From assembly GCA_963556145.1 (NCBI GenBank), contig OY744462.1:434001-498000 (forward strand): 64,000 nucleotides of DNA, given 5' to 3'. This document shows positions 24,086-59,060 of this stretch, piece by piece. A model generated the notes under the pieces. That model worked only from the letters and a program-made list of their open reading frames with translations, made no database searches and was not told the origin of the DNA. The DNA comes from Hygrocybe punicea. Taxonomy: Eukaryota; Basidiomycota; Agaricomycetes; Agaricales; Hygrophoraceae. Both the position numbers and the translations under genes were made by a program. How positions within the stretch are numbered: the first letter of the stretch is position 1; every line of letters begins with the position of its first letter.

Positions 24086-24479
24086 GAATTATTGGTGTTC
24101 TGCAGTGCTCTACAATGTGCTTATTATCCGGAAAGCTGAGATATTCATTCACAAAGTAACAAGAGGATCAAAATGCTCTGAATATTATTAAAAATGCGAG
24201 TAATATAATTCTAATTAATCTCAGTTATATTTGATATACAGAAATAGTAACTATCAATTATTAAATAACACTTCATTCTAAAATTAATTATCAATGACAA
24301 TATAGCTGGTTGACTTACAAAGCAACCTTAAGATAAGTGAGTCAGATAAGCAAAGCATGCCAAGTTATATAGTGTTTGAAGATGTGCACGGACCATTTGT
24401 CTGTGTTTGCAGTAGACCCAGTCATTTTGGTTAACCTGATCACAGATATAGTTACAAAAGGTAGGTACACATAGCACAG

Positions 24480-25260
24480 TTGCTTGCTGGGGGGGTAGGT
24501 TAACCCAAAAGACAGCACTTGCTGGGGAAATGTGGTGTGGTAGGTTTACCCAGGTACAGCTCTTGCTGGTCAAGGGTGGCTGGTTGGGTCAACCTGGTGT
24601 CAGCTCTGCCATGGAGTCGGTTAACCCAGGGCAGTTATTCCAGGATGGTTGGGTTGACCCAGGCCCAGCTGTTCAAGCCATGTGGGTTGACCTGGCTGCA
24701 GTTATTGTTGCAGCACTGGGTTGACCCCAGTCCAGCTCTTGCTGCAGGCTGGGGTTGACCTAGATGCAGCTGTTGCTGCAGAACTGGGTTGACTAGGGCC
24801 CAGCACTTGCTGGAGGGTGGGGTGACTGGGGTCCAGCGATTGCTGCAGCACTGGGTTGACCTGGCCCCAGCTCTTGCTGCAGCACCAGGTCAACCAAGGG
24901 CCAGTTATTGCTGCAGCATGGGGTTGACCTGGCCCCATCTCTTGCTGCAGCACCGGGTCGACCTGGGCCCAGCTATTGCCACAGCATTGGGTTGACCTCA
25001 GCCTAGCTATTGCTGCAGCGCTGGGTTGACCCAGGTCCAGCACTTGCTGCAGGATAGGTTGCCAGGGGCACAGCTCATTCTGCAGCATTGGGTTGATCCT
25101 GGACCCACTGATGGGGCAGGCTTGGGTTCACCAGGGTCTGGCTATTGCTCCAGCACTGCGTTGTCATGCCCAGCTTTTGCTGCAGAAATGGGTTGACCCT
25201 GGCCCAGCTCTCCCTGCAGCATTGGGTTGACCAGCGTCCAGCTCTTGCTGCAACGTGGGC
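24480..25260. repeat. 34-bp satellite (GGTTGACC word), left arm
   Basis: Units such as GGTTGACCTGGCCCAGCTAT followed by TGCTGCAGCACTGG. Each contains the near-palindromes GGTTGACC and CTGCAG. Units degenerate toward the outer end (GGTTAACC, GGTTTACCC). Confidence 0.9.
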
Positions 25261-25749
25261 TCATGTCGGTCGACAGGCTTGCATCACATCCCACTTTGCC
25301 TGCATGTGTTTCATGTTCCAAACATTGCCAGAGCCCACACCAGCTCAAGCCAATATTTATTCAGAAACTGCCATATAAAGTAATCAAAAATTTTCAACCT
25401 GTACATGACATAAATGTACCATGTAATATAATTTGAATGCACTTATTAAAAACACAGGGAATAGCAAAATTAAAAAATTATTATTTTGACAATGCACAAT
25501 CTCTTACTTTTACTATCAGTCAGCCATTACAGGAGCTACTTATCCCCAATGACAATCTATGACAAAATCAGAACTTACCCCACTTGGAATATTGTGCTTT
25601 TCTATTCAATATTGCTCAATTCTCCATTGGAATCAATATATATAACCTCACTATTACTTAAAATAGACACATAAATTTAATGATTATTTTATCCAAATAC
25701 CTAATTAAATAGTGAAGGGCAGAAGGCAGGTGAGAGGAAGATAGGTGGG

Positions 25750-25918
25750 TGTGGAGTGGGAGGAAGGTGGGAGTGGGAGAAGGGAGTGGGAGTGGGAGAA
25801 GAGGGAAGGTGGGAAGGCAGCAGGGAAGGGAGGGAGACAGAGATGAAGACGGAGACGGAGACGGAGACGGAGACGGAGACGGAGATGGAGACGGAGACGG
25901 AGAGAGGGAGGAGAGTGG
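25750..25918. repeat. GA-rich and GGAGAC microsatellite, left arm
   Basis: Purine-rich tract with a run of GGAGAC hexamers at 25850-25905. It is mirrored at 28180-28330. Frames read as Glu/Thr or Asp/Gly repeats and are not supported as genes. Confidence 0.8.
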
Positions 25919-26395
25919 ACTGTACATACGTTCCCGTTGTGCTTGTTGTCTTCGTCTACGTCTTCGCCATCCTCATCCCCCTCATTCCCATCCCCATCCC
26001 CATCGTCCCCATCCACGGCGTTCCAGTCCCTGTCATTCCCGTTTCCGTCATTCCTCTCGTCGTCGTCATCGTTGTCGTTGTCGTCATCATCTCCCATAGT
26101 CCTCATTGTCCGATGGATCGTCGTCGTCGTCTGCATCGTCCTATCGTCCCCTAGCTGGCCATCCCCGTTGTTCCTGTCCCCGTTGTACCCGTTCCCAACG
26201 TTGTCCTCGTTGTCGTCGTCCCCATCTCCGTCCCTGTCCTCATCCTCGTCGATCCCTGGATGGTCGTCGACTGCGTCGTCCTGTCGTATCTTCGCTGGCC
26301 ATCTCCGTCCCCATCGTCTTCCCTGGCTGGCCGTCTGTGCCCTTGTTGCCTCTGTCCTTGTCGTTGCCTGCCATCCACCGTTTCGGCCCTTCAGT

Positions 26396-27639
26396 TGGGC
26401 GTTGACGTGACATGGCGTGGGAATGCGTGTTGCGGTCAATTCCAGGCCCGGCAGTAAGAAAGTCCTTCATAAAAACAATAATATTAGCTAGCATAGTAAT
26501 AGTAATAAATTTTGAGAAATCTACTTACCTTCTACTTGATTTTGCTGCTGTTGCTGTTCTCATGGATGCATTGTGGAGTATGTGACGATTTGAACCCATG
26601 CCGGAGGTTGCCAATTGCCCAGATGGGCACGAGTTGCCTTATATGTAACCAACATCTTACTTTTCTCAGTGTAATTGCATGGAGCACAACAACTGTGTAG
26701 CACATTTAAGACCATGTAGGGATAGAATTAGCCTCTAACTACATCCTCCCCAAATTTTGTATTTTATTATGGCATACATAGAGAGATATCCATGATTCAT
26801 TGATACCTCCCTGCCAATTTCGGACCCTTCAAATGCTACGTTACCAATATTGCTCTGAAAATATGAGAATAATTGTGAAACTACTATGTAAAGTATCTAT
26901 TGTATTGATGATCAGTGCCTGGCACTTGGTAGTCCCAGAATCTGTTGTAGCCAAGAAATGAAAGGTTCAAAGTAAAGCTGAACTTGAAGTTCGGACTTGG
27001 TTGATGGGTCAGCCACAATGCACAATTCTGTGCATTTGCTTGGCTGAAACAAAGGTCCTGGTCCACCAACAATCAGGCACTTATGTGTACCACAATGAGT
27101 ACTCATTCAAGTACTGCTTAGATTAATTTCAGATTTTTAAGACAAAGTTAGATCATTAAGGGTCCAATTCTGGCAGAGGAATGGAATAAATTGTGAATAG
27201 CTCTTGATGCAGGGCTGAATAAACTACAAATTTTGGTATGAGGGTAGATATACCATATTTACACCTTTTGAGGATCTTACTTCTGGTATGCATGCATTGT
27301 TGTGCATGCTAGAAGATTCAAAAGCTTCAGCGACACTTCCATGTTTGGCAACTCGAACACGTTTGGGAAATCGGCAACTGCCAGTTGGCTTTCCTGCGCG
27401 AGTTCAAGCTTCAACTCGTTGTTTTCAACAACGCGTCAACAACGGGAGATGGGTGCAGAGGAGCACCCAAGGTAAATTTCTGATTTTCACTTGTGTTCTT
27501 TACTAATTGTTGACCTTTTGCAGCTACCCCACGCCAAACAGGCGATTCCAAACACCCAACAGTAGAACACAATGCGCCAGCAAACAGAACGGAAGCCGAC
27601 GAAAATGGCCACCATGAGGATGGCGGAAACGAGGCCGCG
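26396..27639. repeat. Central junction of the head-to-head pair
   Basis: From 26396 to about 26830 this is a diverged plus-orientation continuation of copy 2, with a degenerate version of the hairpin block near 26590-26640. From about 26840 to 27639 it is the minus-orientation AT and hairpin blocks of copy 3, similar to copy 1 at 800-1430. The switch falls at a conserved word (ATATTGGTAA on one strand) also present near 1430 in copy 1. Confidence 0.6.
27451..27523 (+). other. Conserved hairpin plus intron-like segment (copy 3)
   Basis: A GGGTGC-loop-GCACCC hairpin at 27451-27468 is followed by a 52-bp intron-like segment. Its donor is GTAAAT at 27472; it has a CTAAT branch-like site and ends TTTTGCAG at 27523. 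It is the same as the minus-strand copy at 754-830 and the plus-strand copy at 62097-62172. Confidence 0.5.
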
Positions 27640-30010
27640 AGGCCAGGTACGAGGATGTGCCAACAACCAGGATGGACGGCCAAGACAACCATGACGGCAA
27701 CAACGAGGACAGTCGATGAGGTCACAGACGGCCGGCAAGGGGACGACGGGGTGGAGAAGGATAGCGACGGGATGACAGGATGACGGAGACGACAACAACC
27801 ATCCGGGGGACGATGACAACCATCCAAGGATTGACGAGGACAAGGACGGGGATGGAGATGGGGACGACGACAACGAGGACAACGTTGGGAATGGGGACAA
27901 CGGGGACAGGAACGATGGGGACGGCCAGCTAAAGGACGACAGGACGATGCAGACGACGACGACGATCCATTGGACGATGAGGACTATGGGAGATGATGAC
28001 GACAACGACAACGATGACGACAACGAGAGGAATGACAGGAACGGGAATGACAGGGACTGGAACGCCGTGGATGGGGACGATGGGGATGGGGATGGGAATG
28101 AGGGGGACGAGGATGGCGGAGACGTAGACGAAGACGACGAGCACAACGGGAACATATGTACAGTCCACTCTCCTCCCTCTCTCCGTCTCCGTCTCCATCT
28201 CCGTCTCCGTCTCCGTCTCCGTCTCCGTCTTCATCTCTGTCTCCCTCCCTTCCCTGCTGCCTTCCCACCTTCCCTCTTCTCCCACTCCCACTCCCTTCTC
28301 CCACTCCCACCTTCCTCCCACTCCACACCCACCTATCTTCCTCTCACCTGCCTTCTGCCCTTCACTATTTAATTAGATATTTGGATAAAATAATCATTAA
28401 ATTTATGTGTCTATTTTAAGTAATAGTGAGGTTATATATATTGATTCCAATGGAGAATTGAGCAATATTGAATAGAAAAGCACAATATTCCAAGTGGGGT
28501 AAGTTCTGATTTTGTCATAGATTGTCATTGGGGATAAGTAGCTCCTGTAATGGCTGACTGATAGTAAAAGTAAGAGATTGTGCATTGTCAAAATAATAAT
28601 TTTTTAATTTTGCTATTCCCTGTGTTTTTAATAAGTGCATTCAAATTATATTACATGGTACATTTATGTCATGTACAGGTTGAAAATTTTTGATTACTTT
28701 ATATGGCAGTTTCTGAATAAATATTGGCTTGAGCTGGTGTGGGCTCTGGCAATGTTTGGAACATGAAACACATGCAGGCAAAGTGGGATGTGATGCAAGC
28801 CTGTCGACCGACATGAGCCCACGTTGCAGCAAGAGCTGGACGCTGGTCAACCCAATGCTGCAGGGAGAGCTGGGCCAGGGTCAACCCATTTCTGCAGCAA
28901 AAGCTGGGCATGACAACGCAGTGCTGGAGCAATAGCCAGACCCTGGTGAACCCAAGCCTGCCCCATCAGTGGGTCCAGGATCAACCCAATGCTGCAGAAT
29001 GAGCTGTGCCCCTGGCAACCTATCCTGCAGCAAGTGCTGGACCTGGGTCAACCCAGCGCTGCAGCAATAGCTAGGCTGAGGTCAACCCAATGCTGTGGCA
29101 ATAGCTGGGCCCAGGTCGACCCGGTGCTGCAGCAAGAGCTGGGGCCAGGTCAACCCAATCCTGCAGCAATAACTGGCCCAGGTCGACCCAATGTTGCAGC
29201 AATAGCTGGGCCCAGGTCGACCTGGTGCTGCAGCAATAGCTGGATCCTGGTCAACCCAAGCCCTGCAGCAGGTGCTGGACCTGGGTTGACCCAATGCTGC
29301 AGCAAGAGCTGGGGCCAGGTCAACCCAATGCTGCAGCAATAACTGGCCCTGGGTTGACCCGGTGCTGCAGCAAGAGCTGGGGCCAGGTCAACCCAGTGCT
29401 GCAGCAATCGCTGGCTCCCGGTCAACCCAAGCCCTGCAGCAGGTGCTGGACCTGGGTCAACCCAGCGCTGCAGCAATAGCTAGGCTGAGGTCAACCCAAT
29501 GCTGTCGCAATAGCTGGGCCCAGGTCGACCCGGTGCTGCAGCAAGAGCTGGGGCCAGGTCAACCCAGTGCTGCAGCAATCGCTGGACCCCAGTCACCCCA
29601 CCCTCCAGCAAGTGCTGGGCCCTAGTCAACCCAGTTCTGCAGCAACAGCTGCATCTAGGTCAACCCCAGCCTGCAGCAAGAGCTGGACTCAGGTCAACCC
29701 AGTGCTGCAACAATAGCTGCAGCCAGGTCAACCCACATGGCTTGAACAGCTGGGCCTGGGTCAACCCAACCATCCTGGAATAACTGCCCTGGGTTAATCG
29801 ACTCCATGGCAGAGCTGACACCAGGTTGACCCAACCAGCCACCCTTGACCAGCAAGAGCTGTACCTGGGTAAACCTACCACACCACATTTCCCCAGCAAG
29901 TGCTGTCTTTTGGGTTAACCTACCCCCCCAGCAAGCAACTGCGCTATGTGTACCTACCTTTTGCAACTATATCTGCAATTGGGTTAACCAAAATGACTGG
30001 GTCTACTGGT
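27640..30010 (-). repeat. Large inverted repeat, right arm (modular family copy 3)
   Basis: Reverse-complement partner of 24411-26395. The AT-rich block (28375-28740) is essentially identical between arms, while the GTC-rich inner part has drifted. The outer ends match up to about 30010 and then differ. Confidence 0.9.
28805..29900. repeat. 34-bp satellite, right arm (expanded)
   Basis: Same units as the left arm in reverse orientation (GCTGCAGCAATAGCTGG, AGGTCAACCCA), with about ten extra copies. Confidence 0.9.
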
Positions 30011-36331: not shown

Positions 36332-38162
36332 CACTTCAGGCTACCCCCAAACCTGAACAACTAGTTACAACTCACCTCTAGTACTGAACCATCTACATGT
36401 TGGTAAAAGTACTGGGCAGCCCTGGGACGAAACCATCGTCCCTGGGATGATACGTTGGGACGTCCCATTGTCCCTGGTCCGGTGTATGGGATGGCCCATG
36501 GGACGACATTTGGTGTTGTGGGGGTGTCTGGGGGCATTTGGGACGTCCCTTCCGTAGCTATTCAATAGAAATCTCAGAGTGATGACAGCATCTAATTATA
36601 AATTTCCAGGCCTTGTCATGGCCACTATGGGTACCATGGGTGCTATGGCATAGTATAAGATTGTATATACTTATTCTTTTGAGAGTCACAGAGCTGATTG
36701 TCCTTCAAGGTCAGTGGCAGGGTGTGGAGATACAGCAGTTGTTTCAACATGTAAAGACAGAAGGAGTGGGAGAGGGAGATGTTGGGTAATGAGATGGGAA
36801 AGAGGGGGAGGATTGAGGGTGTGCTTCTGGTAAACCAATCCCTTGTGCATGTGGCAAGCTGAAGCTTGTAGGGGAGTAAGTGAGCAGAGCATGCATGATA
36901 TACAAAGAAAAGTAGGGCTACATATGCAGAGGAGGCTGAGCTGAAAATTAAACACGTGTATTATGAAGAGCATTTGATCAGGATATCAGTGGTTATTACA
37001 TTATTGGCTGTGCATACAATGGCTGACTGGGAAGCAGATGCAGAGGAGAGATCTGAAATTAGAGTGTGTCTTGAGGACAGAAGGAGACATCTCACAGAGG
37101 CTTTATTGGGACATCCCACAGGCTCGTCTGGGATGTCCCTGTCGCTGAGGCTTTCGGACATCCCTGTCATCTTGTGTGACATCCCACCAAGGCTTTGGGA
37201 CGTCCCACAGCCTTGTCTGGGACATCCCTGCCAGCTTGTGGGACGTCCCACAGCCTTGTTTGAGACATCCCTGTCAGCTTGTGGGACGTCCCAAAGCCTC
37301 GGTGGGACAACCCACAACCTTGTCTGGGACATCCCACAGCCTTGTTTGGGACGTCCCTGCCAGCTTGTGGGATGTCCCACCGAGGCTTTGGGATGTCCCA
37401 CAGCCTTGTCTGGGACGTCCCTGTCAGCTTGTGGGACGTCCCTGCCAGCTTGTGGGACATCCCAACAAGGCTTTGGGACGTCCCACAGCCTTGTCTGGGA
37501 TGTCCCTGTCAGCTTGTGAGATGTCCCACCAAGGCTTTGGGACGTCCCACAGCCTTGTTTGGGACATCCCTGTCAGCTTGTGGGACATCCCACCAAAGCT
37601 TTGGGACGTCCCACAGCCTTGTCTGGGACATCTCTGTCAGCTTGTGGGACATCCCACAACCTTGTCTGGGACATCCCTCTCAGCTTGTGGGACATCCCAC
37701 CAAGGCTTTGGGACGTCCCACAGCCTTGTCTGGGACGTCCCTGTTAGCTTTTGGGATGTCCCACAGTCAGTTTGTGGGATGTCCCACAACCTGGTGTGGA
37801 CATCCCAATGTACAGGCTTTTGGGACTGCCTGCTTGCTCAGCATCTGCTAAGTCATACAATAATAATCATACCCATCCACATCTTACATAATTTTAAATA
37901 ATTTACATTTAGCAACTACTTAAAATAGATACAGCAAATCAAATAATTATTTTACCTAAATACATGGTATTCTACTTATCAGGGGAGAGGCAGGGAGGTG
38001 GAGGTGGAGGAGAGGACAGGAGAGGGAGCAATGGCAGGGGCAATGGCAGGGGGTGGGCAAGGGGAGAAGGACAGGAGGTGGATGGGAGGTGGGGATGGCA
38101 GGGCAGGAGATAGGCAGGGGAGAAGGGGCAGGTTAGGAAGGGACAGACTAGGAGACAGTCAG
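36332..38162 (+). repeat. Giant palindrome, left outer arm (modular family copy 4)
   Basis: Every position x pairs with 78343 - x in 40181-42011 with no length difference, so the 1,831-bp arms are practically identical. Order from outside in: unique sequence, satellite of GGGACGTCCC words, AT block (37800-37980), GA-rich tract (37980-38162). The arm is interrupted at 38163 by an inserted element. Confidence 0.97.
37110..37810. repeat. GGGACGTCCC satellite, left arm
   Basis: Units built from GGGACGTCCC or GGGACATCCC plus CACAGCCTTGTCTGGGA or CTGTCAGCTTGTGGGA. The central decamer is a perfect palindrome. Long frames in all directions (up to 241 codons) only restate the repeat. Confidence 0.95.
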
Positions 38163-38323
38163 TGTCACGACTAGCGGTCGTGTGATGGATCGGCGGTTCA
38201 AACGGTTGCACGATGTCGACAGTAATAGAGGTAGGGTCTTTCAGGGATAAGGTTTAGATGTTGTTTTTGGGTGAAGTTTGTTACGTCTAGTACGACTGCT
38301 AGGAGTAATACAAGAGGTCAAAG

Positions 38324-38731
38324 TTAGGGTAAACTACGTGTAGCGCGATGTCTTTTATACCATCCCTCCCCCTCCGCAGTACCAGTGACGCGTCGTAAAG
38401 GCGACTCGCTCCGTCGTGTTGGTGGGTCTACGTCTCCCCCGGCATTGGGGCGATTTGTGATCATGCCGGGCTGGCGTGCGGATTCGTCACCAGATCCGTA
38501 AGCGTCCGAGTACGCGTCATCACGGCTGTCTCGTTCTTCATGCGGGGATTCGCTGCCATGTGACGTGTCGTTGCTGCGTATCGTGGGGGGTCGGAATGCC
38601 TCGAACGTTGATAGGGGGATCTCGGGATCGGCGGTGATGGGGGTTCGTTGCGCCCCTCGGCATATCGCGGTGAGGATGAAAGTATATACGATAATGATGG
38701 CGATGATGGCGGCGATAACGGATTGGGTCAT
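38324..38731 (-). CDS. Small single-pass membrane protein of the two-gene element
   Basis: 135 residues starting at MTQSVIAAIIAIIIVYTFIL, which gives an N-terminal transmembrane segment (about residues 4-24). A hydrophilic tail rich in Ser, Asp, Arg and Pro follows. The block DPEIPLS...RPPTIRSNDTS is shared with the second copy at 51098-51331 (NPEIPLS...LPPTIRCRDSTS), so it is a conserved gene and not a chance frame. The ATG at 38731 is chosen because the membrane segment follows it at once and the longer frame would run into the shared promoter region. It is divergent from the CCHC gene, 228 bp between start codons. No family is recognised. Confidence 0.65.
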   Translation of the reverse strand: MTQSVIAAIIAIIIVYTFILTAICRGAQRTPITADPEIPLSTFEAFRPPTIRSNDTSHGSESPHEERDSRDDAYSDAYGSGDESARQPGMITNRPNAGGDVDPPTRRSESPLRRVTGTAEGEGWYKRHRATRSLP

Positions 38732-38959
38732 GATTGGAGGGTGTTTGTGCGTGGGTGGTGAAAGTGGGTGTCTTATTGTCCCTGTGCGTGATGAGAGTGG
38801 TCTGTGGTGTTCTGTGAGAGTCGGGGGTTTCAACCTCCGGTCACGTGTCGTTCTCACGGGTTCGTTGATGAAGTGGTAGAGGTTTCTTCCTGATCGGGAG
38901 TGGGCCTCCGTTCGGTATAAAGTGTGGTTGGATTCTTCGTCTCATCTCTCATCAATGCG
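38732..38959. promoter_or_regulatory. Shared divergent promoter region of the two-gene element
   Basis: The 228 bp between the two start codons holds a TATA-like GGTATAAAG at 38915-38923, about 40 bp before the ATG of the CCHC gene. The opposite gene has no clear TATA. Confidence 0.45.
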
Positions 38960-39568
38960 ATGTTTCCCCACTCATGCCATCGTCTCATATTCTTCAAACG
39001 TTCTGCCCTCTTTAACCCGTCCCGCCCTGTCGCGGTTAATTGTATTACGCACGACTTCGCCTGCCGCCTCTCCGACTCTGATCGGGATTTGTATTGGGCT
39101 ACTGGTCGTTGTTTCGCTTGCGGGAAGGCCAAGCATCGTACGGAGTGTTGCCACCTTGTTGCGCGCAACAAGAGGCTTCTGTGCGAGCTTCTGGCCGACC
39201 CGTTCGGTAAGTTCTGTCTTTCTCGGGGTGTTTGGTTATTGTTCTGATGGTTCTTTGTGATAGCGTTGGATGATGCGTTCCCGCCCTCGGACTACTCGTC
39301 CGAGGACTCGATGCCGTCGCTCGCGACGAAGGTTTCCTGGGGGTCCGACTCCGACGAGGACTTCTGGCCCCGGGACGCCTACGTGGACACCGGGGCGCCC
39401 TTCGGGCTGCGTGAGTCCCAGCCTCGTCTTCCCTTCGGCATCGCTGACACGTTTAGGCGCAATTGCCGTGCAGCGATCGAACGGGCGTTGGAAGACCAGA
39501 TTCGTGGCCTCGTTGAGGACGCCGTCCTCCAGGAGGTAATTAAGGAGGAGTATCTCGTAGATGAATAG
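38960..39568 (+). CDS. CCHC zinc-knuckle protein with DTG motif, two exons
   Basis: Exon 1 is 38960-39206 (247 nt) and exon 2 is 39264-39568 (305 nt), with a 57-bp intron (GTAAGT...GATAG). Together they make 183 codons in frame. Residues CFACGKAKHRTECC fit C-x2-C-x4-H-x4-C exactly, the retroviral-type knuckle that binds nucleic acid. Exon 2 is acidic (SDSDEDF), contains YVDTGAPFG, reminiscent of the D-T/S-G-A site of retropepsins, and ends in a predicted helix (IERALEDQIRGLVEDAVLQE). In the second copy (50436-50930) exon 1 has the same length, and knuckle, intron position and VDTG are kept. This suggests a minimal Gag-like protein, by inference only. Confidence 0.75.
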
Positions 39569-39792
39569 ATACTCCTTGATCGTAATAGTCGCACTCCCTT
39601 TCGGGGAGTTGTAGTCGTAGTCTGGTTCGGTCCCGCCCCTTCAAGGGGCTTGTAAATGTAAAAGCTCTTCCCCCTGCTCCGCAGAGTGTGTGAATCGTAA
39701 GGGTTTGTCTGACAATCTGTCAAAGATCGTCATGAAAATAAGTGGTATCTGAGGAAAAATGTATGGGGGTGACGTATTTTCATGACAGTCAG

Positions 39793-40180
39793 GGGGAGAA
39801 TGGAAAGGAGGAGGGAGGAGGGGGAGGGGAAAGGAGGGAAAGGGAGGGCCCAACAAAATTACATACCGGTGTTCCCTGGTCTCTACACCCCTCCTAACCA
39901 ACAACAGCAACAACGGCAACGGCAATGACGAGGACGGGGACAGTGAGGACAGCAAGGACGGCAGGGACGGGGACAGGGACAGGGATGAAAACGACGAGGA
40001 CGAGGGCGACGGGGATGGGGATGAGGACGAGGACGAGGACGGGGACGGGGACGAGGACAGGAACAAGGCCGAGGACACGGAGGGGTGTAGAGACCAGGGA
40101 ACACCGGTATGTAATTTTGTTGGGCCCTCCCTTTCCCTCCTTTCCCCTCCCCCTCCTCCCTCCTCCTTTCCATTCTCCCC
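39793..40180. repeat. Inner arms and loop of the giant palindrome
   Basis: 39793-39895 pairs with 40079-40180 (sum 79973). The loop between (about 39896-40078) is a GACGAGGACGGGGAC-type tract. Before the element was inserted, these arms continued the outer arms without a break. Confidence 0.9.
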
Positions 40181-42011
40181 CTGACTGTCTCCTAGTCTGT
40201 CCCTTCCTAACCTGCCCCTTCTCCCCTGCCTATCTCCTGCCCTGCCATCCCCACCTCCCATCCACCTCCTGTCCTTCTCCCCTTGCCCACCCCCTGCCAT
40301 TGCCCCTGCCATTGCTCCCTCTCCTGTCCTCTCCTCCACCTCCACCTCCCTGCCTCTCCCCTGATAAGTAGAATACCATGTATTTAGGTAAAATAATTAT
40401 TTGATTTGCTGTATCTATTTTAAGTAGTTGCTAAATGTAAATTATTTAAAATTATGTAAGATGTGGATGGGTATGATTATTATTGTATGACTTAGCAGAT
40501 GCTGAGCAAGCAGGCAGTCCCAAAAGCCTGTACATTGGGATGTCCACACCAGGTTGTGGGACATCCCACAAACTGACTGTGGGACATCCCAAAAGCTAAC
40601 AGGGACGTCCCAGACAAGGCTGTGGGACGTCCCAAAGCCTTGGTGGGATGTCCCACAAGCTGAGAGGGATGTCCCAGACAAGGTTGTGGGATGTCCCACA
40701 AGCTGACAGAGATGTCCCAGACAAGGCTGTGGGACGTCCCAAAGCTTTGGTGGGATGTCCCACAAGCTGACAGGGATGTCCCAAACAAGGCTGTGGGACG
40801 TCCCAAAGCCTTGGTGGGACATCTCACAAGCTGACAGGGACATCCCAGACAAGGCTGTGGGACGTCCCAAAGCCTTGTTGGGATGTCCCACAAGCTGGCA
40901 GGGACGTCCCACAAGCTGACAGGGACGTCCCAGACAAGGCTGTGGGACATCCCAAAGCCTCGGTGGGACATCCCACAAGCTGGCAGGGACGTCCCAAACA
41001 AGGCTGTGGGATGTCCCAGACAAGGTTGTGGGTTGTCCCACCGAGGCTTTGGGACGTCCCACAAGCTGACAGGGATGTCTCAAACAAGGCTGTGGGACGT
41101 CCCACAAGCTGGCAGGGATGTCCCAGACAAGGCTGTGGGACGTCCCAAAGCCTTGGTGGGATGTCACACAAGATGACAGGGATGTCCGAAAGCCTCAGCG
41201 ACAGGGACATCCCAGACGAGCCTGTGGGATGTCCCAATAAAGCCTCTGTGAGATGTCTCCTTCTGTCCTCAAGACACACTCTAATTTCAGATCTCTCCTC
41301 TGCATCTGCTTCCCAGTCAGCCATTGTATGCACAGCCAATAATGTAATAACCACTGATATCCTGATCAAATGCTCTTCATAATACACGTGTTTAATTTTC
41401 AGCTCAGCCTCCTCTGCATATGTAGCCCTACTTTTCTTTGTATATCATGCATGCTCTGCTCACTTACTCCCCTACAAGCTTCAGCTTGCCACATGCACAA
41501 GGGATTGGTTTACCAGAAGCACACCCTCAATCCTCCCCCTCTTTCCCATCTCATTACCCAACATCTCCCTCTCCCACTCCTTCTGTCTTTACATGTTGAA
41601 ACAACTGCTGTATCTCCACACCCTGCCACTGACCTTGAAGGACAATCAGCTCTGTGACTCTCAAAAGAATAAGTATATACAATCTTATACTATGCCATAG
41701 CACCCATGGTACCCATAGTGGCCATGACAAGGCCTGGAAATTTATAATTAGATGCTGTCATCACTCTGAGATTTCTATTGAATAGCTACGGAAGGGACGT
41801 CCCAAATGCCCCCAGACACCCCCACAACACCAAATGTCGTCCCATGGGCCATCCCATACACCGGACCAGGGACAATGGGACGTCCCAACGTATCATCCCA
41901 GGGACGATGGTTTCGTCCCAGGGCTGCCCAGTACTTTTACCAACATGTAGATGGTTCAGTACTAGAGGTGAGTTGTAACTAGTTGTTCAGGTTTGGGGGT
42001 AGCCTGAAGTG
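40181..42011 (-). repeat. Giant palindrome, right outer arm
   Basis: Exact reverse complement of 36332-38162 and the uninterrupted version of the insertion site. It contains the satellite in reverse at 40533-41235. Confidence 0.97.
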
Positions 42012-42719: not shown

Positions 42720-44130
42720 CCTGAACTCTTTGGCTGTCAACTTGGGCTGCTCTGCGTATTTCCATGCAACAAAACTCCTTAGACATTACATGTCATCAGG
42801 TGTACATTTTCCATGATCTGATGTCCACCAAAGCTGTTCACAGTTGGCCATCCCTTGGTGTTTGCACCTTTTGTCTCATATTTTGTTTCAGTATCACAAC
42901 AGTGCTGATCTGATACCAGAGGCCTTTCTCAATGGCAGCCTCCTGGTCATGCACAGTTAATCCAGCAAGAAGTTGCATTGACACCACATTACTACATAGT
43001 GTCTTGCCACACCTACAGGAAGAAGCTGGGCAAAATCACCTACAAATATGAAGTTGATGCCTTCAAATGGTAGTTCATATTTGTCAACACATTGCAACCT
43101 TTCCTTGAGCTGTGCAATGGCCATATTTTCAGACTTTTGTTACAGCTATTTGCAGAACTTAGGGCGGAAATGGTTTTTTTTTTTTTTTTGAAAATTTCTC
43201 AAAACCACCATATCTTATTCCAAACATGTTCAATTGCTCTAATATTTGGAATTTGAGGTCCCACAGAGAATCTCTAGGGGACTGTGTCTTCAGAAATTTC
43301 AAATAGCTGCTTTAATTTTTTTCAAAAAAATAGAGTACTTTCTCTCTGTGACCAACACTATTGGCCAACACAAATGCCTCTGGCTCTGAAAATATTATCT
43401 GCTATACCCATATACATCCTCTAGGAAACTGCCAATTCACTTTGCTCCTGATGTATACAGAACATTTATAATTAAATTTCTTGTGAAACTATTAGATTGA
43501 GTAACAACTATAGTCAAGCCAAAGATTTAATTATAAATGTTCTGTATACATTAGGAGAAAAGTGAATTGGCAGTTCCCTAGAGGATGTATATGGGTATAG
43601 CAGATAATATTTTCAGAGCCAGAGGCATTTGTGTTGGCCAATAGTGTTGGTCACAGAGAGAAAGTACTCTATTTTTTTGAAAAAGATTAAAGCAGCTATT
43701 TGAAATTTCTGAAGACACAGTCCCCTAGAGATTCTCTGTGGGATCTCAAATTCCTATTATTAGAGCAATTGAACATGTTTTGAATAAGATATGGTGGTTT
43801 TGAGAAGTTTTCAAAAAAAAAAAAAACCATTTCCGCCCTAAGTTCCGCAAATAGCTGTAACTACCAACTTGAATTTCTAGAAAAGAGTGATAGCATTATT
43901 TATTGCTGCTGCAGTCCTGTTGGTCCAAGAATAACAAACCTGTGTTGCTCCTTCTGTAGAGTAATGAACTGATTGTGAGAGATTGAATCACCTGAGACTT
44001 TCCTATACCTGCCATGCCTCTAATGTATATCTTTAGCTGCTCAGGGTCATGTTGAGTGGCATGGTTGGCAACAATTCAAAATGTCAATTCTTGCTCTTGT
44101 TTTAATGTCTTGTCCCTGACCATCGAACCT
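42720..44130 (-). pseudogene. Helitron Pif1-helicase relic
   Basis: The minus strand encodes INFIFVGDFAQLLPVG (near 43040) and DQEAAIE-like sequence (near 42940). Across the inserted MITE it encodes a Walker A segment GMAGIGKSQV (near 44010). These match motifs of the intact Helitron at 10068-16412 in the same order. Stops and frameshifts are frequent. It is a second, older Helitron lineage copy. Confidence 0.7.
43143..43857. mobile_element. Foldback MITE, Tc1/mariner-like ends, inserted in the Helitron relic
   Basis: Two arms of about 330 bp form an almost perfect inverted repeat with a central unpaired stretch of about 45 bp. Ends are CAGCTATTTGC and its complement, flanked by TA on both sides (43141-43142, 43858-43859). 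A T-run and the matching A-run lie 30 bp inside the ends. It has no coding capacity. The TA duplication fits mobilisation by a Tc1/mariner transposase. Confidence 0.75.
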
Positions 44131-45233: not shown

Positions 45234-47610
45234 CACAGGGTGCACAGTAGCATACCATGTCACACAGTATCTTGAAAGTACTTGACAAGTATACTAAATA
45301 TCATTACCATAACATTCAACATGGTATTGTAACAGTATTCAGACATAAACTACAATACTTGTGCTCAAATTCATCTGAAGGTATGAAGGCAAATGAGACT
45401 TATACCTTTTCAATAACATCAAGCCTTTTGTTTCACTACTTTTACTGTATCTACAGCAAAGTACTGTATAGTTCAGATAGAATACTTGCAGCCTAAGATG
45501 AATCAAAGTATTAAACCAGTAAGGAAGTTGGGGCACTTTTACTATTAGCATACCATTTGAATCCTATCAAGATACAGGATGAAATAGTATAGTACTGTTG
45601 CCATATTTTGGATTTAAGATACTTTGTCAATACTTTTAAGATACTGTTTCAATACATTTAAGATACTGTGTCAATACTTTTAAGATACTATTTCAATACT
45701 TTTAAGGTACTGTTTCAACGCATCTAAGATACTGTTTCAATATCCTTAAAGAACTTTGAAAAATAGAATAGTACTGCTTCAATACTGTTCAGATACTTTG
45801 CAAAATGGTATTGGACAGTTATTTAATGCTAAAACCCAGGGAAATATGGGGCTGGAAATTAGGATTCTGAAGTTCTGGGAATTCGGGGAATTGGAATTCC
45901 AATACTGGGAATGCTAGGAATGGGCATTTCAAAGTGCAGGCTTTGGGATTCTGAGAATTGTAATTCCAAGAGTTTTGAGAAGTTTGGAAAGTAGAATTCT
46001 GAAATTGTGGGAGATTAGGGATTTGGAATTCAACAATTATGAGAATTGAAATCCTGGAAATGGGCATATTAATGAAAATTCCAAGAATGGGAATCCAAAT
46101 TCAGGAAATTGGGAATCCAGATTCTGGAGATTGGGAATCCAGATGCGGGGAATTGGGAATCCATTCCATGCAATTCCATGCAATTCCTCTGTCCTTGAGT
46201 GGCTCAGCAGTATTTGTGATGAGTCGTATGAGCTCGAAAGACAGTTCCGTGCAAATTCCAACCAATTCCAAACAATTCCGTGCAATTCCTCGGTCTACGA
46301 GTGACTCAGCAGTATTTGTGATGTGTCCTGTGAGCTCAAAAGACAATTCCGTGCAAATTCCAACCAATTCCAGACAATTCCGTGCAATTCCTCGGTCTCC
46401 GAGTGGCTCAGCAGTATTTGTGATGTGTCCTGTGAGCTCAAAAGACAATTCCGTGCAAATTCCAACCAATTCCACACAATTCCATGCAATTCCTCAGTCC
46501 ACGAGTGGCTCAGCAGTATTTGTGTCGACTGCAGTGAGCTCAGAAGACAGATCGAGGAATTGCACGGAATTGTTTGGAATTGGTTGGAATTTGCAAGGAA
46601 TTGTCCTTTGAGCTCACACGACTCATCACGAATACTGCTCAGCCACTCGAGGACCGAGGAATTGCATGGAATGGTTTGGAATGGCTTCCCAATTCCCCAC
46701 ATCTGGATTCCCAATCTGCTGAATCTGGATTCCCAATTTCCTGCATTTGGATTCCCATTCTTGGAATTTGCATTAATATGCACATTTTCAGGATTTCAAT
46801 TCTCATCATTGTTGACTTCCAAATCCCTAATCTCCCACAATTTCAGAATTCTACTTTCCAAACTTCTCAAACTCTTGGAATTACAATTCTCAGAATCCCA
46901 AAGCCTGCACTTTGAAATGCTCATTCCTAGCATTCCCAGTATTGGAATTCCAATTCTCAGAATTCCCAGAACTTCAGAATCCTAATTTCCAGCCCCATAT
47001 TTCCCTGGGTTTTAGCATTAAATAACTGTCCAATACCATTTTGCAAAGTATCTGAACAGTATTGAAGCAGTACTATTCTATTTTTCAAAGTTCTTTAAGG
47101 ATATTGAAACAGTATCTTAGATGCGTTGAAACAGTACCTTAAAAGTATTGAAATAGTATCTTAAAAGTATTGACACAGTATCTTAAATGTATTGAAACAG
47201 TATCTTAAAAGTATTGACAAAGTATCTTAAATCCAAAATATGGCAACAGTACTATACTATTTCATCCTGTATCTTGATAGGATTCAAATGGTATGCTAAT
47301 AGTAAAAGTGCCCCAACTTCCTTACTGGTTTAATACTTTGATTCATCTTAGGCTGCAAGTATTCTATCCAAACTATACAGCACTTTGCTGTAAATACAGT
47401 AAAAGTAGTGAAACAAAAGGCTTGATGTTATTGAAAAGGTATAAGTCTCATTTTCCTTCATACTTTCAGATGAATTTGAGCACAAGTATTGTAGTTTATA
47501 TCTGAATACTGTTACAATACCATGCTGAAAGTTCTGGTAATGATATTTAGTATACTTGTCAAGTACTTTCAAGCTACTGTGTGACATGGTATGCTACTGT
47601 GCACCCTGTG
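45234..47610. mobile_element. 2.4-kb foldback element with 3-bp flanking repeat
   Basis: The ends are CACAGGGTGCACAGTAGC and its exact complement. Outer positions pair with x + y = 92844. TGT flanks both ends (45231-45233, 47611-47613). The arms are nearly perfect; the centre (about 46190-46660) is a tandem array. No credible gene. A 3-bp duplication with CAC-type ends would fit a CACTA or related DNA transposon, as a non-autonomous foldback form. Confidence 0.75.
46190..46660. repeat. About 105-bp tandem array, four units plus one inverted
   Basis: Each unit contains CTCAGCAGTATTTGTGATG, GAGCTCAAAAGACAATTCC and CAATTCCGTGCAATTCCTC. Four units run in plus orientation to about 46555, then a single unit in reverse. 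The array forms the loop of the foldback element. Confidence 0.85.
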
Positions 47611-49429: not shown

Positions 49430-50416
49430 TCCAATTCATGAATGCTGAATGAAGGAGGTCATTTCATTCCAGAGCTCTTGCAGACACAGTTTTATTTGAG
49501 AATTGAATGCAGCAGAGTGTGAGGGAAACAGTTTGTATGGTACATGAACACCACATTGGCTTGCTAGCAAATCCTGAATTCATCTAAATACATACACTGC
49601 CTCTGTGATAGATCACCCCAGAGGAAGCTAAGGTTGGTAGTTGTAAGAGAGTGATGATGGCCAGACTTCTGAGCGTGTGGGTTGTGTGCTACTCCAAAGA
49701 TATGATGGTAATGGAGGGTTTTATAGACAAGTGACTTTCAGATGCCCAGAAGGATGCATATCTCTTTGACACTATTTTTTTAATTTAATTTAATTTTTGT
49801 CCACATTATAGTCTCTTAGGGAGTACCCTATGTCGGACTTAACATGTGAGGCAGAATCTTTGACACTATTGGGTGAACATCGCATAGGATTGGGATGTGA
49901 GTTTTGAGGTCCCTAGATGCAGTTTGGGCCATGGTGCTGATGTTTGGAATGATACTGGGGTCCTACCAAATCAGAGCCAAATACAACCAATTCCAATTTT
50001 TTTGAAAATCAGGATTCCACATCATTTCAAAAACTGCTATAATTATGCACCCTCACTGAACCAGGTCTGACTTGGGGAAGTGGGCCATCACCAGTGTGGT
50101 ATGAATGAGTTCTTCTGGGCTGCCCTCTCTGAAACTTGTCAGTTGTCATTTTCAGATTGAGATACTTTATATCATAATGTTATCAATATTACTGTCATGA
50201 AAATACATCACCCCCCATACATTTTTCCTTGATACCCCTTATTTTCATGATGATCTTAGACAGATCACTGGATGATCCCTTACAATTCACACATATGCGG
50301 AGTGGAACGATGCAATATTATTACAATCCCCTTGAAGGGGACACAACCAGACCGAACTGAACTATAACTACAACTCCCTGGAGGGGAGTACGACTACAGC
50401 TAATTGGAGGAGCTTT

Positions 50417-50930
50417 CTACACGAGACACTCCTCCCTAACGAAAGTTACCCATAAATGCTCCAACAACACCAAAAGGCAGATGGCGTGACTGAAACTCAC
50501 GGTACTCGAAAGACGACCCAGTGTCCACCCAGCAGGCCTCTTTCGAGTCGGACCCCCACGAGACCTTCGTGAGCACCGGCATTGAGTCGCTGGACAAGTC
50601 GTCTGGCAGGGGGGACGCATCATCCAATTCTACCAAACAGAGCCATCAGAATCATACATCAATAAAACCAGAAGAATACTCACTGAATGGGTCGGCCAGA
50701 AGCTGGCACAGAAGCTTCTTATTAGACCCAACAGATGGGCAACGCTCCATGCGATGCTTCGCCGTCCCGCAAGCAAAACACCAACCAGTAGCCCAATACA
50801 AGTCCTGGTCAGTGTTGCTGAGTAGGGAGGCGTAGTGGTGTGTAAAACAATTAACCGCGATAGGACAGGTCGGGTTGAAGAGGGAAGAGCGTTTAAAGAA
50901 TATAAGATGGTGGCCAGAGTGGTGAGACAT
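50417..50930 (-). pseudogene. CCHC zinc-knuckle protein, second copy (truncated)
   Basis: Exon 1 is 50684-50930 (247 nt, as in the first copy), with a GTGAGT...GGTAG intron; exon 2 starts at 50629. The knuckle CFACGTAKHRMERC again fits C-x2-C-x4-H-x4-C, and WVDTGSSFEYR keeps the DTG. After GAFMGNFR the frame stops where the first copy continues for about 35 residues. The distal codons (EECLV, like EEYLV in copy 1) survive in another frame, so a deletion with frameshift has occurred. Confidence 0.65.
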
Positions 50931-51097
50931 CGCATTGATGAAGAACCAGACGAAGAAACCAACAAGACTTTATACTGAACGAAAACCCTTCCTCGATCCA
51001 GAAGGGCCCCTATCATCTTCATCAATGCACCTGTGAGAATGACATGTGACCGGAGGCTGAAATCTCCAGTTCTCACAAAACTCCACCATCAAGACTC

Positions 51098-57689: not shown

Positions 57690-58067
57690 TGAATAACAAT
57701 GTAACGACCTCCGAACATGTGTCGAACACTGTTCGGCAAGTGTTCGGTTAGTCATATGCATATTGATGCGTTAATTAATGTCCGTGTGGCTTGTCGAACA
57801 CTTGTCGAACAGTGTTTGGCCTGTTCGACACGTGTTCAACAAGTCATTGCTACATTAACAAATCAAGTGGAATATATATTAACGTAGATACGGCTTGTCA
57901 AACACTTGTCGAACAGGCCAAACACTGTTCGACAGGTGTTCAACAAGTCATTTCTACGTTAATAAATTAAGTGGAATATATATTAATATAGATACGGCTT
58001 GTCGAACACTTGTCGAACAGTGTTCAGCCTGTTCGACAAGTGTTCGACAAGCCATATCTACGTTACA
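57690..58067. repeat. TGTTCGACAAGTGTTCGACA satellite, left side
   Basis: Near-palindromic words (GTCGAACACTTGTCGAACAG, TGTTCGGCCTGTTCGACA) separated by AT-rich segments at about 115-120-bp spacing. They also appear at 58918-58985 beyond the palindrome. Confidence 0.8.
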
Positions 58068-58068
58068 G

Positions 58069-58876
58069 CTGTTTGCATAAAGCATGACAGTAACTGGGCT
58101 TTTTTTAATTCAATTGAGAAATGTGGACTTAGTGGAATTTTCAATGCTGTTTTGTGTTTCTCATGAAATACTGCATGGAATGATATGGTTATAGAGGGAA
58201 AGTTGTACTATTTTTGAAGGGCTATCAGGCCCTCTAATTACATTTGGACAATATTCAGTGTGTAGTGAGTGGTGGATGAAATAAAAGGTAAACTAGTACT
58301 TTTTGACACCCAAAATGATATTGTCAAATTATGGCATCAAATGAACTCATATGAAGAAGATTGTAGGGAGAAAGTTGTTCATTTTTTCAAGGGCTAGGAG
58401 TACATATACCGTGTTTTTCTTTATTTTTGTCTTCTCAGCCCATAATTATGATTCTTGTGGTATTTCAAATTTAATGCAGGCAAACATGGTACAGATGTAA
58501 TATTGGCTGAGAAGACAGAAATAAAGAAAAACACGGTATATGTACTCCTAGCCCTTGAAAAAATGAACAACTTTCTCCCTACAATCTTCTTCATATGAGT
58601 TCATTTGATGCCATAATTTGACAATATCATTTTGGGTGTCAAAAAGTACTAGTTTACCTTTTATTTCATCCACCACTCACTACACACTGAATATTGTCCA
58701 AATGTAATTAGAGGGCCTGATAGCCCTTCAAAAATAGTACAACTTTCCCTCTATAACCATATCATTCCATGCAGTATTTCATGAGAAACACAAAACAGCA
58801 TTGAAAATTCCACTAAGTCCACATTTCTCAATTGAATTAAAAAAAGCCCAGTTACTGTCATGCTTTATGCAAACAG
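58069..58876. repeat. Palindrome with about 370-bp arms
   Basis: Arms 58069-58437 and 58508-58876 pair with x + y = 116945 and look almost identical. The loop is about 70 bp. Arm ends are ACAGCTGT words. No TA or other clear duplication is visible because satellite continues on both sides. No gene. Confidence 0.9.
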
Positions 58877-59060
58877 CTGTAATAAATATTCCACTTGATT
58901 TATTAATGTAGCAATGATTTGTCGAACACTTGTCGAACAGTGTTCGGCCTGTTTGACAAGTGTTTGACAAGTGTTTGACAATTCATATCTATGTTAATAA
59001 TCATACCAATATATATATTAGCATCAAGCATGTTCGGCCTCTTCGCCGTGTCATAAGTTA
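58877..59060. repeat. TGTTCGACA satellite, right side
   Basis: Short continuation of the satellite outside the right arm, ending near 59040. Confidence 0.7.

Follow-up and report, generated by a model that had tools for sequence, protein, structure and literature searches.

Chromovirus LTRs of the fungus Hygrocybe punicea likely carry two genes under purifying selection in their U3, in a block that apparently recombines independently of gag-pol

Long terminal repeats (LTRs) are regarded as non-coding DNA with a regulatory role, and those that stand alone (solo LTRs) as dead remnants. HBZ of HTLV-1, a bZIP protein encoded mostly outside the LTR, is a spliced antisense regulator that is started from LTR sequence. 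Among the chromoviruses, Tf1/sushi elements are self-priming and have a chromodomain integrase; to our knowledge, none of their LTRs encodes a protein. The self-priming principle is that LTR-derived sequence beside the 5' LTR serves as the primer-binding site (PMC2864245). LTRs are ordinarily non-coding, but the sag gene of MMTV lies mostly in U3, and most of its surviving copies are solo LTRs (490 of 527 shortlisted contigs) (PMC4667437). In the plant elements Grande, RIRE2, and Retand, extra antisense ORFs lie between pol and the 3' LTR, and the same source mentions the antisense HBZ of HTLV-1 (PMC11963269). Self-encoded control in trans is described for Ty1, whose copy number is controlled by p22 (PMC7055915). 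The available text of a survey of fungal LTRs makes no mention of ORFs within them (PMC3248453), and a literature search, with most subscription journals outside its coverage, returned no report of a fungal LTR with two conserved genes.

The window analyzed here is the whole 64,000-nt stretch of the H. punicea genome (contig OY744462.1, positions 434,001 to 498,000), and the unit at 38163 to 39787 within it is a solo LTR of a Ty3/gypsy chromovirus, whose sense strand is the minus strand of the window. We consider it quite probable that the U3 of this LTR holds two selected frames, one in sense orientation that is predicted to encode a small protein with a membrane anchor and one in antisense, with a predicted intron, that encodes a protein with a CCHC zinc knuckle, and that together they form a regulatory cassette of the element's own. 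The closest parallel is with MMTV and related betaretroviruses, in which a protein gene also lies mostly in U3 and survives mostly as solo LTRs (PMC4667437). This likeness is one of layout, and there are differences: here the host is a fungus, there are two genes, one of them antisense with an intron, and the gene block appears to have been exchanged between elements with nearly the same gag-pol. LTR-encoded genes are already known from MMTV sag, and the fungal two-gene LTR is a variation on that; the transposon itself is of no new kind, and the case is clear and unusual for its coding LTRs, whose gene cassettes are exchangeable.

The 1,625-bp unit begins with TGTCACGACTAG at 38163 and closes with TTTTCATGACA at 39787, giving terminal inverted ends TGTCA...TGACA, and the sequence reads GTCAG on both sides (38158 to 38162 and 39788 to 39792), so that the ends and the target-site duplication reported in the preliminary description are both in place. 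Its claim that the surrounding palindrome preserves the empty site was likewise reproduced by position-wise pairing. The left arm (36332 to 38162, plus strand) pairs with 40181 to 42011 at 1,831 of 1,831 positions with a coordinate sum of 78343; past the element the sum is 79973 (5/5 at 39788 to 39792 and 88/88 at 39793 to 39880), a jump of exactly 1,630, and the opposite (right) arm holds a single GTCAG, the empty site, at 40181 to 40185 on the minus strand. Since the arms match at 1,831/1,831 positions outside the insertion and at 93/93 just inside it, the insertion postdates their last homogenization. A full-length element would have inserted in one arm, after which LTR-LTR recombination would have left the solo copy. 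Both arms contain short-repeat arrays (37100 to 37800 and 40540 to 41250) built on the palindromic word GGGACGTCCC / GGGATGTCCC, and further large near-perfect palindromes lie in the window at 24410 to 30008, 43176 to 43826, 45234 to 47610, and 58063 to 58882.

The identity of the unit follows from an 8.5-kb gag-pol chromovirus elsewhere in the genome (L009), which carries it as paired LTRs: two 100% identical copies (1,627 bp) enclose a 5.2-kb internal region, and the window unit matches both of them on the minus strand, with gag-pol on the plus strand. Gag has 513 aa and is followed by a pol of 1,258 aa in which a Pfam scan found protease, RT, RNase H, and integrase, in the Ty3/gypsy order, with a chromodomain; pol is read from the strand opposite to that of the CCHC gene. 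There is a 5-bp duplication outside the LTRs, and the purine tract AGGAGGGGGG lies ahead of the 3' LTR. Among the fetched elements with paired LTRs around gag-pol, this is the one with the LTR type of the window (type A), and three (L047, L048, and L049) have a relative of it (type B); paired TG...CA LTRs, a purine tract, and a 5-bp target duplication were also found in L047 and L048. With pol as query, 7,554 of 7,972 scored protein database entries matched at E ≤ 0.001. Among the 120 matches listed, the highest-scoring are vertebrate proteins (47 to 54% identity), the most similar are metagenomic proteins (73 to 75%), and the named fungal ones, e.g., from Lyophyllum shimeji and Trametes sanguinea, are about 60% identical. 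One option of the preliminary description, a long solo LTR with captured genes, was therefore right. Its other two, a non-autonomous retroelement of small size that encodes Gag and a DNA element of a new kind, find no support, since the unit is the LTR pair of an 8.5-kb chromovirus. It had also named an ordinary LTR of a longer retrotransposon, without conserved ORFs, as an outcome that would speak against it; the unit is indeed part of a longer element's LTR, but its ORFs are conserved.

As a query, the window unit gave at least 72 DNA matches in the 92-Mb genome, many of them fragments of one copy (40 of 103 candidates scored), and exon 1 of the CCHC gene gave 87 matches in about 85 LTR copies. 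An exact 5-bp duplication flush at the matched ends was found in 21 of 40 type-A rows (39 fetched copies plus the window copy) and in 8 of 22 type-B rows, so that the duplication is not a chance feature; the window copy and 20 of the other 39 type-A rows are directly flanked by the duplication without an internal region. Besides the L009 pair, four type-A rows adjoin an internal region on the purine-tract side and two on the primer-binding side, and the others are truncated, diverged at one end, or without an exact duplication. Genome-wide, nine exact junctions between purine tract and LTR (plus one with a mismatch) and eight between primer site and LTR were found; set against the 87 exon-1 matches, these few junctions indicate that unattached LTRs dominate. 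Two solo LTRs on different contigs (L035, G000:C2:8440644; L036, G000:C1:9399355), each less than 150 kb from a contig end, have identical target duplications and the same flanking sequence, which points to segmental duplication as their probable origin.

Directly 3' of the 5' LTR lies TTAGGTCAAAGTT, and the complement of its 11-nt core AGGTCAAAGTT sits near the sense-strand 3' end of the LTR in all five LTRs examined; in the window this is AACTTTGACCT at 38315 to 38325 (minus strand), a putative self-primer and RNA start. A primer site of this LTR-derived kind would be the layout of self-priming chromoviruses, with the genomic RNA putatively starting at about 38325. Tf1/sushi elements resemble the present family in the chromodomain integrase and, if the putative self-primer is real, in this primer site adjoining the 5' LTR. 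The sole TATAAA on the minus strand of the window LTR (38354 to 38359) is 34 nt upstream of the putative start and overlaps the last codons of the sense ORF. Taking self-primer and TATA box together, we place R-U5 at 38163 to 38325 and U3 at 38326 to 39787 (both minus strand). Because the inferred RNA start coincides with the end of the sense ORF (38731 to 38324, minus strand), U3 would contain both genes, neither of them a leader ORF of the genomic RNA, and the U3 as delimited here holds coding frames under selection. The genomic RNA would start at the self-primer (~38325, minus strand), and each gene would have its own promoter. The indel-rich divergent intergenic region (38732 to 38959) is a putative two-way promoter, in which the sole TATAAA on the plus strand of the window LTR (38916 to 38921) stands 44 nt ahead of the ATG of the antisense gene. 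Since the CCHC gene is antisense, its intron would not be spliced from genomic RNA and would survive reverse transcription, which fits its presence in the 53 copies examined. HBZ of HTLV-1 is a parallel to the arrangement predicted here, being a spliced antisense gene that starts in LTR sequence, and it differs in being a bZIP gene mostly outside the LTR.

The divergent pair, the GTAAGT...TAG intron signals, and the CCHC motif reported in the preliminary description are all present. Exon 1 (38960 to 39206, plus strand) includes a zinc-knuckle motif CX2CX4HX4C (residues 51 to 64; 39110 to 39151, plus strand) that occurs in types A and B; its C, C, H, and C are invariant in five of five aligned sequences, with a 2-residue insertion between the first two in L066. 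The predicted 57-nt intron (39207 to 39263, plus strand) keeps its splice signals across copies (GT donor in 31/31 type-A and 20/22 type-B copies, TAG acceptor in 53/53), and its place and phase are identical in A, B, and a decayed copy at 50 kb. Exon 2 (39264 to 39568, plus strand) is acidic. The protein has 183 aa in A and 178 in B, with a basic stretch in the first 82 residues (net +6 and +5 in A and B) and an acidic remainder (−13 and −9); A and B are 51% identical overall, and exon 1 retains 61 to 68% amino acid identity between LTR types. The DTG triplet, noted in the preliminary description, is missing from the type-B protein and is thus no conserved protease signature, and an aspartic protease identity was rejected. 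Neither the spliced CCHC protein nor the sense ORF matched a Pfam family at E ≤ 0.1; a Pfam comparison of five members gave weak matches to an AIR2-like knuckle (E 0.006, two of five) and zf-CCHC_4 (E 0.21, one of five), and a PDB profile search gave AIR2 alone, weakly (E 0.26). The probable zinc-knuckle assignment rests on the motif, and these weak matches point to AIR2-type knuckles. AlphaFold modelling of exon 1, based on two sequences, proved uninformative (mean pLDDT 38.9). Grande, RIRE2, and Retand offer a likeness, in that a Ty3/gypsy lineage there conserves an antisense gene whose product putatively binds nucleic acid; their ORFs, however, lie outside the LTR, and Retand, in which most of them carry TRP28, does not belong to the chromoviruses (PMC11963269).

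The sense ORF (38324 to 38731, minus strand) encodes 135 aa with an N-terminal hydrophobic segment at residues 5 to 23 (hydropathy 2.9 in A, similar in B and in a third LTR type), and the hydropathy scan revealed no second hydrophobic stretch; a membrane-anchored product is predicted from hydropathy alone. It is free of internal stops in 13 of 31 type-A and 18 of 22 type-B copies, the other 18 type-A copies bearing stops. Both LTRs of L009 carry TGA at codon 67, as do L014 and L015; since L009, with its identical LTRs, has recently transposed, the full-length sense protein is not strictly needed. The conserved part is the first ~60 residues. Read from the stops, these copies show that the C-terminal half would be dispensable at least at times. 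TGA recurs in type-A copies at codons 29, 47, 67, and 113, as expected of CGA to TGA changes at CpG.

Judged by their substitution patterns, both LTR frames are under purifying selection as protein genes. Within type A (31 of 40 rows, after nine short, interrupted, or duplicate rows were dropped), the CCHC gene had a dN/dS of 0.34 and the sense ORF one of 0.31, against 0.65 to 0.99 in eight control frames. Within type B (22 rows of ~42 in the genome, with L066 and unfetched copies left out), the values were 0.16 and 0.51. Between types, exon 1 of L009 versus L047 gave 0.49 in frame and 0.83 to 1.08 in the five other frames (gaps excluded), and the first 62 codons of the sense ORF, window versus L047, gave 0.54 in frame versus 0.90 and 0.97. 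The CCHC gene is free of internal stops in 28/31 type-A and 22/22 type-B copies. Indels, counted per copy so that inherited events enter repeatedly, numbered 4 in the 552 nt of exon and 7 in the 408 nt of sense ORF, and elsewhere 46 in the 228 nt of intergenic region and 74 in the 161 nt of R-U5. A test corrected for the mutation spectrum, which also dropped L036 and four type-B rows, gave 0.71 (CCHC) and 0.77 (sense) for shared polymorphisms in A, a weaker signal than by the plain method, and 0.31 and 0.67 in B. For private (single-copy) mutations, the omega-like values were 0.86 (CCHC) and 1.03 (sense) in A and 0.73 and 0.90 in B. Since shared polymorphisms are constrained and private ones near neutral, it was the replicating lineage that came under selection, and once inserted, most copies mainly drift.

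The type-B set, found with exon 1 as query, comprises 42 LTRs with about 60% protein identity to type A. The LTR pairs of the three type-B elements are 99.94% (L047), 100% (L048), and 99.88% (L049) identical; L047 has open frames for gag (519 aa) and pol (1,199 aa), and in L048 the frame around RT is shorter (683 aa). A third, decayed LTR type is represented by L066 and, in the window itself, by a relative at 50193 to 51086 (plus strand; 76.5% identity over 566 nt of the central part), in which CCHC exon 1 is recognizable by sequence match at 50684 to 50930 (minus strand).

Across the genes, A and B LTRs are 53 to 75% identical per 150-nt window and at best 69% over 679 nt; their first 178 nt (86%) and last 217 nt (91%) are more alike, and B-type LTRs agree with one another at 98 to 99%. 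In its internal region, the type-A element shares 97.2%, 97.7%, and 96.0% identity with the three type-B elements (B, C, and D), which are 99.0%, 96.0% (B-D), and 96.7% identical to one another. These A-B distances overlap the B-B distances; the type-A body therefore falls within B-type diversity. Pol of A and B is 98% identical in amino acids, and the synonymous difference (pS) rises from 0.048 in pol to 0.445 in exon 1. Fast protein evolution cannot account for this tenfold gap at synonymous sites, which argues that recombination replaced the LTR gene block. Judging from these comparisons, the block apparently recombines independently of gag-pol; the cassettes may be exchanged when packaged RNAs of two types recombine. 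One solo LTR (L045, G000:C41:2801813-2803449; duplication GAGAA) is an A/B hybrid: in 100-nt windows it is of type A (88 to 93%) through the sense ORF and the greater part of the intergenic region, then switches near the CCHC start to type B (85 to 99%), which it remains up to its end. It can be taken as a direct sign of A/B recombination, with direction and mechanism inferred. Because it joins an A sense gene and a mostly A intergenic region to a B CCHC gene, the two genes are separable, and a CCHC gene is not bound to move with its own promoter. When all type-A rows were scanned for more hybrids, none was listed, but that scan is uninformative, since it also missed L045 itself.

As for function, we tentatively favor an autoregulatory pair borne by U3, in which the CCHC protein would bind nucleic acid and act on the transcription or RNA of elements with its own kind of U3. 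This would fit two observations: (i) the gene block moves apart from gag-pol, which suggests that neither Gag nor Pol is the partner and that the simplest candidate is the element's own LTR DNA or RNA, and (ii) Gag and Pol hardly differ between types, which would place the CCHC target on its own U3 kind rather than on either of them. Solo LTRs may keep expressing both genes. For most of the ~85 LTR copies no adjoining full element was detected, but the antisense gene is still open in the majority, so that "dead" copies could still make a protein influencing live ones. The cassette swap, with near-identical gag-pol and different LTR genes, amounts to a natural experiment on what the proteins recognize.

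The main rival to the autoregulatory pair, which we hold to be possible but doubtful, is a self-encoded restriction factor: the CCHC protein would hinder particle assembly of its own family, as p22 does for Ty1, and solo LTRs would help set the dose in a form of copy number control. Each LTR holds a gene for a small knuckle protein, so the dose could climb with copy number, and over 31 residues spanning the knuckle the protein is similar to the Gag knuckle of its own element (10/31 identical, E 6e-4 in a single comparison). Ty1 provides the precedent for a self-encoded trans-acting role (PMC7055915). There is, however, no convincing match between the CCHC protein and Gag beyond the knuckle, and a CCHC protein only 51% identical between types while pol is 98% identical in amino acids and the internal DNA 96 to 98% is unexpected for a partner of Gag. 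The p22 protein is itself a piece of Gag from the internal region, unlike the present gene, which lies in the LTR.

We regard it as unlikely that U3 is a swappable, immunity-like module consisting of a protein pair and the sequences it acts on, exchanged as a block among elements with common replication machinery. The ~85 dispersed LTR copies would then act in trans, and resident elements of one U3 type would control incoming elements of the same type and not of the other.

It is very improbable that the frames are untranslated chance openings in G+C-rich DNA. No database homologue was found at E ≤ 0.001, either for the spliced CCHC protein (none of 121 candidates, in the database that lists many pol relatives but where small spliced genes may be split or missing) or for a five-sequence exon-1 alignment (none of six), and the sense ORF is often broken in type A. 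This absence is probably weak evidence, and against chance stand the frame-specific selection within two LTR types and between them, the scarcity of exon indels, the conserved splice sites, and the exon-1 identity across types. There is also only a slight chance that the host keeps the genes, the solo LTRs being domesticated copies selected at their own loci. Exon 1 is stop-free in 84 of the 87 genome matches, some of them partial, and the private value of 0.73 for the type-B CCHC gene leaves some room for retention; the near-neutral private values as a whole indicate that selection acted mainly before insertion. An independent non-autonomous two-gene element, whether DNA or a small retroelement with integrase-type ends, was rejected and can hardly be right, even though 21 of the 40 type-A rows occur by themselves between 5-bp duplications, because the unit occurs as paired chromovirus LTRs around gag-pol, flanked inward by the primer-binding site and the purine tract.

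Two further chromovirus families occur in the genome. The third (L068:1144-8150; RT ~50% identical) has LTRs of ~0.52 kb, which in the one element examined matched neither the CCHC nor the sense gene, so that not every chromovirus family of this host carries the cassette. In the second, abundant family (RT ~53% identical), pol is followed by a third ORF (253 aa), which apparently enters the 3' LTR (L067:3727-4488, plus strand, and G000:C3:5035226-5035984). Many matches to this ORF are full (residues 1 to 253), and partial ones, starting from residue ~122 to 128, lie about one element length away; matches are mostly without stops (150 of 392 candidates scored). The partial matches appear as expected of a 5' LTR, in what would be a nef-like layout. 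An ORF apparently running into the LTR in this second family suggests that coding LTRs may be under-noticed.
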